A DNA stretch of 64,000 nt, taken from NCBI GenBank assembly GCA_003220685.1, contig QHTE01000048.1, positions 1 through 64,000 on the forward strand, given 5' to 3'. The stretch's first letter is position 1. Each line of letters starts with the position of its first letter. The notes under the pieces are model-generated. The model ran no database searches and was not told the origin of the DNA. It saw only the letters and a list, made by a program, of their open reading frames with translations. Of the stretch, positions 19,186 through 56,340 are shown one piece after another. The position numbers were made by a program, and so were the translations under genes. Source of the DNA: Candidatus Rokuibacteriota bacterium (GTDB lineage Bacteria; Methylomirabilota; Methylomirabilia; Rokubacteriales; CSP1-6).

Positions 19186-21555
19186 ATGTCCTTTCTCGAG
19201 TCGCGAACCCGCTCGGCGCGCGAAGGCTTCGGCAAGCCTGTCTTGCGGAAAGAGGACGCGCGTCTGCTCGTCGGCGGCGGCTGCTACAGCGACGACGTCA
19301 ACGTGCCGGGCCAGGTCTACGCCTGCTTCGTGCGCTCGCCGCACGCCCACGCCCGCGTCGAGCGCATCGAGAGCGCGGCCGCACTCGCCACATCGGGGGT
19401 GATCGCCGTGCTGACCGGCGCCGACGCCCTCGCGGACGGCGTGAAGCCGCTCACCCACAGTCCCATGCCCGGCAATCCCCACGAGGACATGCTGCGCAGC
19501 CGCGACGTGGCGTTCATCGCCCCGCACCCGCCGATCCCGGCCGATCGCGTGCGCTTCGTCGGCGAGGTGGTGGCGATGGTCGTCGCCGAGACACCCGCGG
19601 CGGCGCGCGACGGCGCCGAGCGGGTCGAAGTGTCATGGACGGCGCTCCCCGCGGTGACCGCCAGCACCGCCGCCGCGCGGCCCGACGCGCCGCTCCTCTA
19701 CGACGGGACCGTGTCGAACGTGTGCGTGGACACCGATCTGGGCGACGTCGCGGCGGTCGACCGCGTGTTTGCGCGCGCCGCCCACGTGGTGCGGCTGGAC
19801 ACCTGGGTGCATCGGGTCACCGGCGTGCCGATGGAGCCGCGCGCAGCCGTCGGCGTCTGGGATCCGACGACCAGCCGCTTCACCGTGCACGCCGGCGCCG
19901 GCGGTCTCGGCCGCACGCAGACCGCCGTGGCCGGCTCGCTCGGCGTCCCGGAGAGCGCCGTGCGGGTGACGGCGCGCGATGTCGGCGGAAACTTCGGCAC
20001 GCGCAACAGCGGCTATCCGGAGTTCGCGCTGGTCGCCTGGGCCGCGCGGCGGATCGGGCGCCCGGTGAAGTGGACGGCGGAGCGGCGCGAGGCGTTCATG
20101 GCCGACTACGGCGGCCGCGACCTCACGGCCCGGGCCGAGCTGGCTCTCGACCGCGAGGGCAACTTCCTCGCGTTCCGCGGCGCCAACACGAGCAACGTCG
20201 GTGCCCACGCGGTCTCGTTCCACCCGCTCAACAAGGGCATGGCGCTGACCGCGACGGTCTACCGGGTGCCGGCCGTGTCGATGCACGGGCGCGCCGTGAT
20301 CACGAACACGTCGCCGACGACGCCGTACCGGAGCGCGGGGCGCCCGGAGATCATGTTCGTCATGGAGCGGCTGATCGATCTCGCCGCGCGCCGCCACGGA
20401 TTCGATCGGCTCGAGCTGCGGCGGCGCAACCTCGTGCCCGCGACCGCGATGCCGTACACGAATCCGATGGGGCTGGTCTACGACAGCGGCGACTACCTGG
20501 CGGTGCTCGATCGGGCGGTCGAGCTCGCCGACTGGAAAGGGTTCGAGGCGCGGCGCGCCGAGGCGCGCCGGCGCGGCCTCTACCGCGGCATCGGCGTGGC
20601 CAACTACATCGAGCTCAACACCGGCTTTCCGCGTGAGCGGGCCCACATCACGGTGCGCCCCGAGGGGATCGTCGACCTGGTGCTGGGCACGCTCTCGTCG
20701 GGGCAAGGCCACGCGACCAGCTTCGCGCAGCTCCTGGTCGAGTGGCTCGGCGTCGAGCTCGCCGAGGTGCGGCTGATCACCGGCGACACGGACCTCACGG
20801 TGGTCGGCGGCGGCGCTCACTCGGCGCGGGCGCTCCGGCTCGCGGCGGTGGTGATGGCCAAGGCGGCGGATCAGATCGTCGCCAAGGGCCGGCGCGTCGC
20901 CGCCTGGATGCTCGAGGCCGCGGCGGACGACGTCGAGTTCTCGGCGCGGCGGTTCAGGGTGAAGGGCACGGACCGATCGGTCGATCTGTTCGACGTGGCG
21001 CGCGCGGCGGCGCGGCCCGACGCGCCGGCCGACCTGCGCGGTCCGCTCGACGGCCTGAGCGACGAGACGATGCCGCTGCCGTCCTACCCCTACGGCACGG
21101 CAGTGTGCGAGGTCGAGGTCGATCCCGAGACCGGCGAGGTCGCGGTGGTGCGCTATACGACCGTCGACGACTGCGGACGCGCCGTCAACCCGATGATCCT
21201 CCACGGCCAGACGCACGGCGGCATCGCGCAGGGGGTGGGCCAGGCGCTCTGGGAGGCCTGCGCCTACGAGGCCTCGACCGGCCAGCTGCTCTCGTCGACG
21301 ATGATGGACTACGCGATGCCGCGCGCGGACATGCTGCCGCCGTTCACGACCGAGATCAGCGAGGTGCCCTCCGCGGCGCATCCGCTCGGTCTGCGAGGGG
21401 GCGGCGAGGGGGGGACCACGCCCGCCCTCGGCGCCGCGGTGAACGCGATCGTCGATGCGCTCGGCGAGCTCGGCGTGGAGCACATCGAGATGCCGGCGAC
21501 GTCCGAGCGCGTCTGGCGAGCGATCCGCGACGCGCGCGCGGCCGCTCGGGCGTAG
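19186..21555 (+). CDS. Xanthine dehydrogenase family molybdopterin-binding subunit
   Basis: A 789-residue large subunit of a molybdenum hydroxylase. The N-terminal a/b hammerhead domain holds GKPVLRKEDARLL and RSPHAHARV. MoCo-binding segments are RDVGGNFGTRN, PTTPYRSAGRPE and GTLSSGQGHATSFAQ. The catalytic glutamate is in the C-terminal GGEGGT. The CO-dehydrogenase signature loop with selanyl/cysteine is not present, so this is not a CoxL. I prefer ATG 19186 to the TTG at 19147, which lies inside the palindromic operator. Small and medium subunit genes are not adjacent, so partner subunits must come from elsewhere or the divergent heme protein may accept electrons. Confidence 0.93.
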   Translation: MSFLESRTRSAREGFGKPVLRKEDARLLVGGGCYSDDVNVPGQVYACFVRSPHAHARVERIESAAALATSGVIAVLTGADALADGVKPLTHSPMPGNPHEDMLRSRDVAFIAPHPPIPADRVRFVGEVVAMVVAETPAAARDGAERVEVSWTALPAVTASTAAARPDAPLLYDGTVSNVCVDTDLGDVAAVDRVFARAAHVVRLDTWVHRVTGVPMEPRAAVGVWDPTTSRFTVHAGAGGLGRTQTAVAGSLGVPESAVRVTARDVGGNFGTRNSGYPEFALVAWAARRIGRPVKWTAERREAFMADYGGRDLTARAELALDREGNFLAFRGANTSNVGAHAVSFHPLNKGMALTATVYRVPAVSMHGRAVITNTSPTTPYRSAGRPEIMFVMERLIDLAARRHGFDRLELRRRNLVPATAMPYTNPMGLVYDSGDYLAVLDRAVELADWKGFEARRAEARRRGLYRGIGVANYIELNTGFPRERAHITVRPEGIVDLVLGTLSSGQGHATSFAQLLVEWLGVELAEVRLITGDTDLTVVGGGAHSARALRLAAVVMAKAADQIVAKGRRVAAWMLEAAADDVEFSARRFRVKGTDRSVDLFDVARAAARPDAPADLRGPLDGLSDETMPLPSYPYGTAVCEVEVDPETGEVAVVRYTTVDDCGRAVNPMILHGQTHGGIAQGVGQALWEACAYEASTGQLLSSTMMDYAMPRADMLPPFTTEISEVPSAAHPLGLRGGGEGGTTPALGAAVNAIVDALGELGVEHIEMPATSERVWRAIRDARAAARA

Positions 21556-21558: not shown

Positions 21559-21598
21559 CGGGGCAGCGTCGAGACCACCGCGAGACCGGGAGGCGGCG

Positions 21599-22225
21599 AT
21601 GAGCGAGCCCACGAGATTCGAGATCTTCACCGACTACGTCTGACCCTGGTGCTATCTCAGTACCGTGCGTATTGAGAAGCTCCAGGCGGCGTACGACATC
21701 GAGCCCGTGCTCGTGCATTTCCCGCTGCATCCGGAGACGCCCCCCGAGGGCCGCGACATGACCACGTTCTATGCCGAGCGCGGCATCGATCCCGATGCCG
21801 CCTACAACCGGATGAAGGGCCTGATGGACCGCGAGGGGCTGCCCTACAGCCGGCGCACGCACACCTACAACAGCCGGCTCGCCCAGGAGCTCGGCAAGTG
21901 GGCCGACACGCAGCCTGGCGGGACGGCCATCCACGACGCGTTCTATCGCGCCTACTTCGTCGGCGCCCAGAACATCGGCGACACCGAGGTGATGCTCGAC
22001 GTGGTGAAATCGGTCGGCCTCGACCGCGAGGCGGCGCGCGACGTCTTGAAGGAGCGCTGGTTCAAGGACGCGGTCGACGCCGACTGGGCGAAGTCGCGCC
22101 GTCTGGGCGTGACCGGCGTGCCGACCTTCGTGGCCGGCGGCTACGGCGTCGTCGGCGCCCAGCCGTACGAGGTGCTGGTCCAGCTGGTCGAGAAAGCCGG
22201 AGCCCGCCGGCGGGTGGTATCCTAG
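21599..22225 (+). CDS. Selenocysteine-containing DsbA/FrnE-like oxidoreductase (UPWC active site)
   Basis: The real gene starts at ATG 21599 with GGGAGG 5 nt upstream and is 208 residues including one selenocysteine. The codon for residue 15 is TGA (21641-21643), in the sequence FEIFTDYV-U-PWCYLST. All close relatives of this fold have CPWC here, so TGA replaces the attacking cysteine of the CxxC motif. Downstream the frame is intact, with YNRMKGLMDREG, the helical insertion of the 2-hydroxychromene-2-carboxylate isomerase/FrnE group, and the cis-proline loop GVTGVPTFV. A hairpin begins one base after the TGA. No signal peptide is present, so it probably acts in the cytosol as a thiol-disulfide oxidoreductase or glutathione-linked enzyme. 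Standard callers would start at 21665 and lose the active site. Confidence 0.9.
21644..21686 (+). promoter_or_regulatory. Candidate SECIS hairpin of the DsbA-like selenoprotein gene
   Basis: Immediately after the TGA: CCTGG (21645-21649) pairs with CCAGG (21682-21686), GCT with AGC (21651-21653 and 21678-21680), and TCTCAGTAC (21655-21663) with GTATTGAGA (21669-21677, one G-U). The loop is CGUGC, 20 nt from the UGA. An unpaired A and a T-T mismatch interrupt the stem. The distance to the loop suits SelB-dependent recoding. Confidence 0.8.
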
Positions 22226-22318: not shown

Positions 22319-23011
22319 ATGCTTTACGAGCTTCGTCGTTACGATGTCGCCGCCGGCAAGCTCGCCGCGCTGGTCGACCGCTTCGGCAGCTTCACCGTCC
22401 ACAAGTGGAAGGAATATGGCTTTCGCCTGATCGGCTTCTGGACTCCCGTCGTCGCGGACAGGAGCAACCAGCTCGTCTACATCTGGGGCTGGGAAAGCAT
22501 GGAGGAGCGGGCCAAGAAGAACGCCGCCTGGCGGGCCGATCCCGAGCGGGCCAAGAAGTGGGCCGAGACCGAGAAGGACGGCCCGCTGGTCAATCGCGTC
22601 GACAACCAGCTCATGGAGCCCACCTCGTACTCGCAGATCGACCGCGGCGAGCCCTACGGACCCGACGCGTCGAGCCGGAGCCCGTATCTCTTCGAGCTGC
22701 GTGAGTACCAGGCGATGCCGGGCAAGATCCAGAACATCACCGATCGGTTCGGCAACTTCACATGTGGCGCGTTCAAGAAGCACGGCTTCCGGCAGGTCGG
22801 CTACTGGCACAACGTGTTCGGCGGCAACAGCAACGAGCTGATCTACCTGCTGGCCTGGGAGAGCCTGGACGAGCGCATGGCCAAGTTCGACGGGTTCGCC
22901 AAGGACCCCGAGCGCGCGCGCGTGTTCGCCGAGAGCGAGAAGAACGGCCCGATCGTGCAGCAGGTGCGCAACATGATCCTGCGTCCCACGGCCTTTTCAC
23001 CCATCAAGTAG
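22319..23011 (+). CDS. NIPSNAP family protein with two tandem domains
   Basis: A 230-residue protein made of two dimeric alpha-beta barrel NIPSNAP domains. The first begins MLYELRRYDVAAGK and the second begins FELREYQAMPGKIQNI near residue 125. Each has the family pattern of a WxW or AWES strand (IWGWESMEERAKK; LLAWESLDERMAK) and ends with a NGPIVQQV-like strand. ATG 22319 follows AGTGAGG. Bacterial NIPSNAP proteins have no settled function; some sit near degradation genes and may bind hydrophobic metabolites. It is preceded and followed by palindromic repeat copies. Confidence 0.88.
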   Translation: MLYELRRYDVAAGKLAALVDRFGSFTVHKWKEYGFRLIGFWTPVVADRSNQLVYIWGWESMEERAKKNAAWRADPERAKKWAETEKDGPLVNRVDNQLMEPTSYSQIDRGEPYGPDASSRSPYLFELREYQAMPGKIQNITDRFGNFTCGAFKKHGFRQVGYWHNVFGGNSNELIYLLAWESLDERMAKFDGFAKDPERARVFAESEKNGPIVQQVRNMILRPTAFSPIK

Positions 23012-45361: not shown

Positions 45362-45414
45362 GCGCCGCGCGGGGGGCGGGGCGCGGCTCGGCGTGCGCGC
45401 CCGCGGCTCAGCCG
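45355..45414. terminator. Nested inverted repeats between convergent genes
   Basis: CGGCTGAGC (45355-45363) pairs with GCTCAGCCG (45406-45414), and inside it GCCGCGC (45364-45370) with GCGCGGC (45381-45387). The aminotransferase TGA and the selenoprotein's minus-strand TGA stop both lie in the outer arms, as in the 12956-13001 element. Confidence 0.45.
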
Positions 45415-45755
45415 AGCAGTCGCTTGTAGGTGGCCTCGTCGAAGCCGACGATCAGCGCGCGGCCCTTGCGGAGCGTCGGCGCCCGCAGATTGCCGGTGGG
45501 GCCCAGCAGGAGGCCGAGCAGCTCGGCCGGCGGCGGCTTGTCGCGCTTGAGGTCGACGTGCACGATCTTCTTGCCCTTGGCGACGTAGAGCTCGTCCACG
45601 TCTTTCAGCGTGCTCAGCGCGGCGTCACCCTTGATCGTGGCCTTTTTTGCATCGGTCTGTGAGGCGATACCGACCTTGTGCTTGGCAAGGAACCCTTGCG
45701 TCTTGGCGCAGGTCACTCAGCCCTGGCGGTGGTAGCTCCAATCGACGGCGCTCAT
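45408..45755 (-). CDS. Selenocysteine-containing ArsC/glutaredoxin-like protein (UVTC active site)
   Basis: The full gene starts at ATG 45755 and encodes 115 residues including one selenocysteine. It begins MSAVDWSYHRQG-U-VTCAKTQGFL. The TGA at 45719-45717 is codon 13, where relatives have the first cysteine of a CxTC motif at the N-terminus of the first helix. The rest is intact: FLAKHKVGIASQTDAKKATI, a conserved lysine and LRAPTLRKGRALIVGFDEATYKRLLG, with the cis-Pro loop APTL. The fold is that of ArsC/Spx or glutaredoxin. The function is a thiol/selenol redox reaction of unknown target. A hairpin with loop GUU follows the TGA by 23 nt. Callers would start at the GTG just after it and delete the active site. 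Confidence 0.9.
45672..45714 (-). promoter_or_regulatory. Candidate SECIS hairpin of the ArsC-like selenoprotein gene
   Basis: On the minus strand GCAAGG (45699-45694) pairs with CCTTGC (45690-45685) around loop GUU, and GACCT (45714-45710) pairs with AGGTC (45676-45672). A partly paired internal loop joins the two stems. The apex GGGUUCC is identical to that of the peroxiredoxin SECIS. The loop lies 23 nt after the UGA. Confidence 0.75.
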
Positions 45756-55905: not shown

Positions 55906-56340
55906 TCAGAGCGTTTTGATGACCTCGGCGGGCCAGGCTCTTGCCTCGACGCGGTCGTGCCATTGCTTGATCTTGCCGTCGCGGTCGATCACGACGCCGA
56001 CGCGCTGGGCGCCCTTCGCCGGGTCGACGTTGGCGCCGTAGGCGGTGCCGATCGTGCGGTCGGTGTCGCAGATCAAGGGGAAGTTGAAGTGGTTCTTCTC
56101 GGCGAACTTCTTGTTGTCGACGGGGGTGTCGAACGATACGCCCACGATCACCGCGTTCTTGCGGTCGTAGTCGGCCTTCAGGTCGCGGAACCCGCAACCC
56201 TCGGCGGTTCAGCCGGCCGTGTCGGCCTTGGGAAAGAACCAGAGCACGACCGTCTTGCCCTTGAAGTCGGCGAGCTTGACGGTGTTGCCGTTGTGGTCGC
56301 GCCCGACGAAGTCCGGCGCCTTGTCTCCTGGATTCAGCAT
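55906..56340 (-). CDS. Selenocysteine-containing peroxiredoxin (BCP/PrxQ type)
   Basis: The full gene starts at ATG 56340 with GGAGGAG just upstream and encodes 144 residues including one selenocysteine. It reads GDKAPDFVGRDHNG, then WFFPKADTAG-U-TAEGCGFRD. The TGA (56211-56209) is codon 44, precisely the peroxidatic cysteine of peroxiredoxins. The resolving cysteine is Cys49, giving the U-x4-C spacing of BCP/PrxQ. Later motifs VGVSFDTPVDNKKFAEKN and FPLICDTDRTIGTAYG are intact. It reduces hydroperoxides in the cytosol. The TGA is followed by a hairpin with loop GUU. It is last in a series with an LLM oxidoreductase and an iron-type ABC transporter. Callers begin it at 56151 and lose the catalytic site. 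Confidence 0.9.
56174..56205 (-). promoter_or_regulatory. Candidate SECIS hairpin of the selenoperoxiredoxin gene
   Basis: On the minus strand GGTTGCGG (56199-56192) pairs with CCGCGACC (56188-56181, one G-U) around loop GUU, and GCC (56205-56203) with GGC (56176-56174) outside an internal loop. The loop starts 18 nt after the UGA. The apex GGGUUCC is shared with the ArsC-like gene. Confidence 0.75.

Follow-up and report, generated by a model that had tools for sequence, protein, structure and literature searches.

The window, the 64,000-nucleotide stretch of DNA analyzed here, comes from an uncultured host known from a metagenome-assembled genome of 137 contigs. Within it lies a predicted gene for a DsbA/FrnE-like selenoprotein, the elements of which are as follows.

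21599-22225, plus strand: predicted DsbA/FrnE-like selenoprotein gene, 208 aa, selenocysteine (U) at residue 15, stop codon TAG.
21588-21593, plus strand: likely ribosome-binding site, GGGAGG, 5 nt 5' of the ATG, from direct reading of the sequence.
21641-21643, plus strand: TGA read as selenocysteine, residue 15 and position 1 of the motif UPWC; TGA in 27 Sec-form genomes, Cys in 74 homologous loci.
21647-21652, plus strand: codons TGG TGC, encoding Trp17 and the putative resolving Cys18 by translation; W17 and C18 are invariant.
21644-21688, plus strand: SECIS-like hairpin, from its predicted fold (z -4.59), frozen codons and pair counts.
21655-21663 paired with 21669-21677, plus strand: upper stem of the conserved hairpin core, with the loop CGUGC at 21664-21668, from pair counts among relatives.

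The gene occupies a single frame from the ATG at 21599-21601 to the TAG at 22223-22225, and its sole in-frame stop is the TGA at 21641-21643. The translated frame reads MSEPTRFEIFTDYV, the TGA, and PWCYLSTVRIEKL, continuing to the TAG that ends at 22225. A first-pass annotation of this DNA had placed the start at ATG 21599 behind GGGAGG with the frame open past the TGA, and both elements are borne out. It had also described an in-frame continuation of 190 residues after the TGA; the continuation is present, and its length is 193 residues. Cys18 is the only cysteine remaining in the predicted protein, with none located C-terminal to it.

The predicted protein matches the Pfam DSBA family (PF01323) over residues 8-196 with a score of 109.1 bits against a cut-off of 25.6. 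A sequence search of solved structures returned as its only relatives Deinococcus FrnE and Streptomyces SCO1869, and a fold search with a structure model built from 23 relatives (pLDDT 94.8) likewise placed FrnE first (5co3, E 4e-16, TM 0.87) and SCO1869 next. In this model helix 1 comprises residues 16-31, starting right after residue 15, and the invariant V174-P175 provides, in the alignment, the Val/Thr-Pro loop that faces the CxxC motif in the DsbA fold. FrnE of Deinococcus radiodurans (DR_0659; PDB 5CNW, 5CO3 and 5XWH; 32% identity over the fold match) carries CPWC at the same place as the UPWC of the window protein, with no signal sequence apparent, but has Cys rather than Sec and possesses a C-terminal CxxxxC that is absent from the translation of the window gene. 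This second motif is found in many, not all, FrnE proteins and is not required for membership in the family (PMC8945050). SCO1869 of Streptomyces coelicolor (PDB 3GL5), which shares the DsbA/FrnE fold and is matched over its full length (E 2e-22), is also a Cys form where the window protein has Sec.

The chain has no redox residues besides U15 and C18. In the mechanism that we propose, the enzyme would be cytoplasmic, the selenolate of U15 would attack a substrate disulfide, and C18, as the sole remaining cysteine, would resolve the resulting mixed selenosulfide. Because there is no second Cys pair, reducing equivalents would be supplied by thioredoxin or a low-molecular thiol. In Deinococcus, mutation of FrnE confers sensitivity to cadmium and diamide (PMC8945050); by analogy, the role of the window protein is likely disulfide repair in oxidative stress, and the reaction is probably the reduction or isomerisation of disulfides under such conditions.

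The protein could instead be a real Sec protein that functions as a redox sensor or a glutathione-type transferase and does not reduce or isomerise disulfides. The fold search also returned kappa-class GST, HCCA isomerase and YjbH, and the C-terminal CxxxxC, which recycles Deinococcus FrnE, is missing here as it is in some FrnE homologues. The three fold matches have lower scores, however, with FrnE and SCO1869 closest by both sequence and fold, and the UxxC motif is retained with both of its redox residues. A second Cys is not known to be needed by GST-kappa or HCCA isomerase, which counts against the transferase. We therefore consider a sensor or transferase unlikely, and disulfide reduction or isomerisation is the function that we favor.

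The identity of residue 15 was assessed among relatives. Their alignment at this column, a check proposed with the first-pass annotation, revealed Cys or Sec in 103 of 103 loci covering the residue, in agreement with its claim that the TGA takes the place of the first CPWC cysteine. A search of GTDB genomes yielded 80 loci, in which codon 15 is TGA in 6, TGC or TGT in 74, and a codon for any other residue in none; two of the six TGA loci are from Rokubacteria and four from genomes labelled Alphaproteobacteria or Proteobacteria. A family-wide search recovered the gene in 23 of 57 genomes, and every rokubacterial copy spanning codon 15, 23 in total, has TGA; the rest of the phylum sample (95 genomes) yielded none. 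The TGA-bearing relatives are 60-94% identical, and residues 6-14, encoded 5' of the TGA, show conservation at the protein level, with D12, Y13 and V14 invariant.

This upstream conservation argues against the possibility that the TGA is a true stop and that translation begins at an internal GTG (21665) to generate a 186-aa protein without the active site. A mechanical list of open reading frames does contain GTG 21665-22225, but a ribosome-binding site precedes ATG 21599, the shorter product would be deprived of both active-site residues, its GTG lies within the frozen hairpin loop described below, and a true stop would not persist in 27 lineages. We regard this explanation as highly improbable. 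Less probable again is a sequencing error or a decaying pseudogene in which TGC became TGA: the codon is one base away from TGC or TGT, but this explanation is refuted by the occurrence of the same TGA in 23 independently assembled rokubacterial and four alphaproteobacterial genomes, and the gene contains no other stop and no frameshift. The least probable explanation, a variant genetic code that reads TGA as sense throughout the genome, has nothing in its favor besides the in-frame TGA. It is refuted by the coding-like frames of the window: of 39 with 150 codons or more, 19 terminate at TGA. The genome also possesses tRNA-Sec and SelB.

The first-pass annotation had further proposed a search of the genome for selA, selB, selC and selD, and all four are present, each with a match above the curated cut-off. 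By profile search, selB (363 bits) and selA (588 bits) adjoin each other on contig 73 of the window's genome, and the tRNA-Sec gene (selC), with anticodon TCA, is located approximately 1.4 kb from selA (69.8 bits with Rfam; also called by ARAGORN). A second, weaker SelB match (C37) is likely elongation factor Tu. The selD gene (335 bits; L018) occupies positions 189837-190781 of contig 19 and itself contains an in-frame TGA, in the context SCAG-U-ASK. Behind that TGA is a strong hairpin whose CTCCTGGA/TCCAGGAG stem spans 8 bp. SelD is thus probably a selenoprotein in this organism, and the TGA and hairpin of its gene indicate that the genome has further selenoproteins. Of the 57 genomes in the window's family, 52 encode SelA, as do those of all four alphaproteobacterial Sec forms, while among five Cys-form hosts tested, two have selA and three do not.

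Bacterial SECIS elements have been assigned limits of 3-9 nt for the loop, 4-16 bp for the upper stem, a G in loop position 1 or 2, a distance of 16-37 nt from the UGA, and a minimum free energy of at most -7.5 (PMC13188914). The hairpin downstream of the TGA has a 5-nt loop, CGUGC, with G at loop position 2, a 9-bp upper stem, and a spacing of 20 nt from the UGA; the 50 nt from the TGA on fold with -24.5 kcal/mol, as compared with -12.9 +/- 2.5 for dinucleotide shuffles, 4.6 standard deviations below them (z -4.6) and with none of 200 shuffles as good. It thus lies inside the published limits in loop size, upper stem, loop G, spacing and energy (PMC13188914). The folding of these 50 nt had been suggested as a check on the first-pass annotation, and its outcome is within those limits. 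The CGUGC loop was found 20 nt from the UGA, at 21664-21668, as that annotation had described; the hairpin had been said to begin one base after the TGA, whereas the first predicted pair involves the base that directly follows it.

Comparison among relatives indicates that different parts of this structure are unequally conserved. The upper stem and loop are retained in nearly all aligned rows, while relatives do not preserve the lower stem folded in the window (columns 4-9 with 42-48). Two pairs have changed on both sides, a degree of covariation reached by 7 of 500 shuffles, and 7 of the 18 pairs never vary; the locus L027 has one true compensatory change, from U-A to C-G, at column 21 with 31. 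Compensatory changes are few because the sequence of the hairpin is frozen. A scan of the gene region against Rfam, with E up to 1, gave no match, a result of little weight given the great diversity of bacterial SECIS elements.

Since the hairpin is too conserved to covary, a test of synonymous sites was used, and the main evidence for selection on the hairpin is this conservation, with Cys genes as the control, rather than covariation. Codon identity was defined as use of the same codon where two genes share an amino acid. Among 25 distinct Sec genes it is 0.90 over codons 16-27 and 0.67 over codons 32-200, and the best 12-codon stretch starting at codon 34 or later attains 75%. Among 22 close Cys genes, in contrast, the values are 0.49 over codons 16-27 and 0.52 over the rest, with no freezing. 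Codon 20 is CTC and codon 24 is CGT in 25 of 25 Sec genes. Codons used in the hairpin are rare in the window: AGT accounts for 2.0% of Ser codons, ATT for 3.3% of Ile codons and CGT for 7.5% of Arg codons, while TAT makes up 17.5% of Tyr codons. The codon choice in the hairpin therefore runs counter to the habit of the genome. The Sec forms share the peptide YLSTVRIE or YLSTVRVE, while most Cys forms have YLGDNRVK at the same place. Frozen codons, together with their absence from the Cys control, are the pattern predicted for an RNA signal within a gene, and these comparisons indicate that the hairpin is under selection beyond that on the protein sequence. At this locus an RNA signal, not the protein, keeps 12 codons nearly constant in two phyla, which makes it a clean example of such constraint.

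The open frame, the sel genes, the homologues and the hairpin support the first-pass reading of a Sec-containing thiol oxidoreductase. This evidence makes it almost certain that the TGA directs insertion of selenocysteine in the active site, and we are highly confident that the gene as a whole encodes a cytoplasmic FrnE/DsbA-type oxidoreductase with a UPWC motif, in which UGA would be decoded as Sec by means of the downstream hairpin. SelB would bind the hairpin and bring Sec-tRNA(Sec) to the UGA.

The history of the Sec and Cys forms was examined with an alignment from which the hairpin (SECIS) columns had been removed. The free tree requires three switches between the labels Sec and Cys; trees constrained to one Sec clade (AU p 0.41) or to one rokubacterial clade (p 0.13) are not rejected. 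The window copy groups with the alphaproteobacterial L027 (95/80), which hints at transfer and is not decisive. A betaproteobacterial Cys form (L042), whose genome has no selA match, is sister to the rokubacterial Sec group. We infer a single origin of the Sec form, favored because the hairpins are near-identical across two phyla, with later transfer and replacement of Sec by Cys, L042 being one example. It is conceivable, if rather doubtful, that Sec was ancestral in the clade of Rokubacteria and Alphaproteobacteria, that gene and SECIS moved between phyla as a unit, and that the Cys forms arose later. Under such a history, Sec would have been lost in lineages that were thereby freed of the SECIS constraint, with YLSTVRIE changing to YLGDNRVK, and the usual assumption of Cys as the ancestral state would be reversed. 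A Caenispirillum Cys homologue (L052, at approximately position 1003), from a genome without a selA match, has the peptide YLNTGRIEKL, which is near that of the Sec forms, and is possibly a Sec-to-Cys reversion. T-x-R-I/M-E/D likewise occurs in some distant Cys proteins (Desulfofustis), which makes the RIE peptide unsafe as a fossil of a lost SECIS.

Sec-containing DsbA-like UxxC proteins of COG2761 were described from the Sargasso Sea in 2005 (PMC1088965), the same kind was designated "DsbA 1" in the GOS study of 2008 (PMC2398784), and it is listed as "DsbA-like form 1", PF01323, in a 2026 review (PMC13188914). The window protein has in common with these marine proteins the DsbA fold and Sec as the first residue of UxxC, and in both cases the SECIS closely follows the UGA and carries a G in its small apical loop; we group the window protein with the marine COG2761 UxxC selenoproteins (Zhang 2005) on the basis of PF01323 and the UxxC motif. 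The marine forms were from marine metagenomes, whereas the window gene is from Rokubacteria (Methylomirabilota). This is a kind of selenoprotein known since 2005, in a new lineage, and the finding, which extends the Sec-DsbA selenoproteins to a well-supported lineage of soil and subsurface, is solid, useful for annotation, and unsurprising to specialists in selenoproteins. According to the account given in the review, a groundwater study includes a Methylomirabilota MAG with 63 predicted selenoprotein genes (Deng et al., via PMC13188914), and going by that account the window gene may already be within that data set. Because automatic gene callers would give a truncated 186-aa protein without the active site, and there is no curated NCBIfam model for the Sec form of DsbA, the Sec-DsbA genes are probably mis-annotated in these genomes.

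The gene is flanked by those for a molybdenum hydroxylase large subunit (19189-21555) and a two-repeat NIPSNAP protein (22319-23011). Only the two closest genomes share this arrangement, which the other rokubacterial Sec-DsbA loci lack, and a functional operon with these neighbors is not claimed for that reason. Two other genes of the window contain an in-frame TGA.

45408-45755, minus strand: ArsC family (seleno)protein gene, TGA at 45719-45717; NF041106, 136 bits against a cut-off of 85.
55906-56340, minus strand: PrxQ/Bcp-like AhpC/TSA peroxiredoxin gene, TGA at 56211-56209, with U in KADTAG-U-TAEGCGF.

The ArsC-like gene has the motif U-VTC and a SECIS-like hairpin and is likely the second selenoprotein gene of the window; the PrxQ-like gene, with a hairpin of -20.7 kcal/mol, is likely the third.
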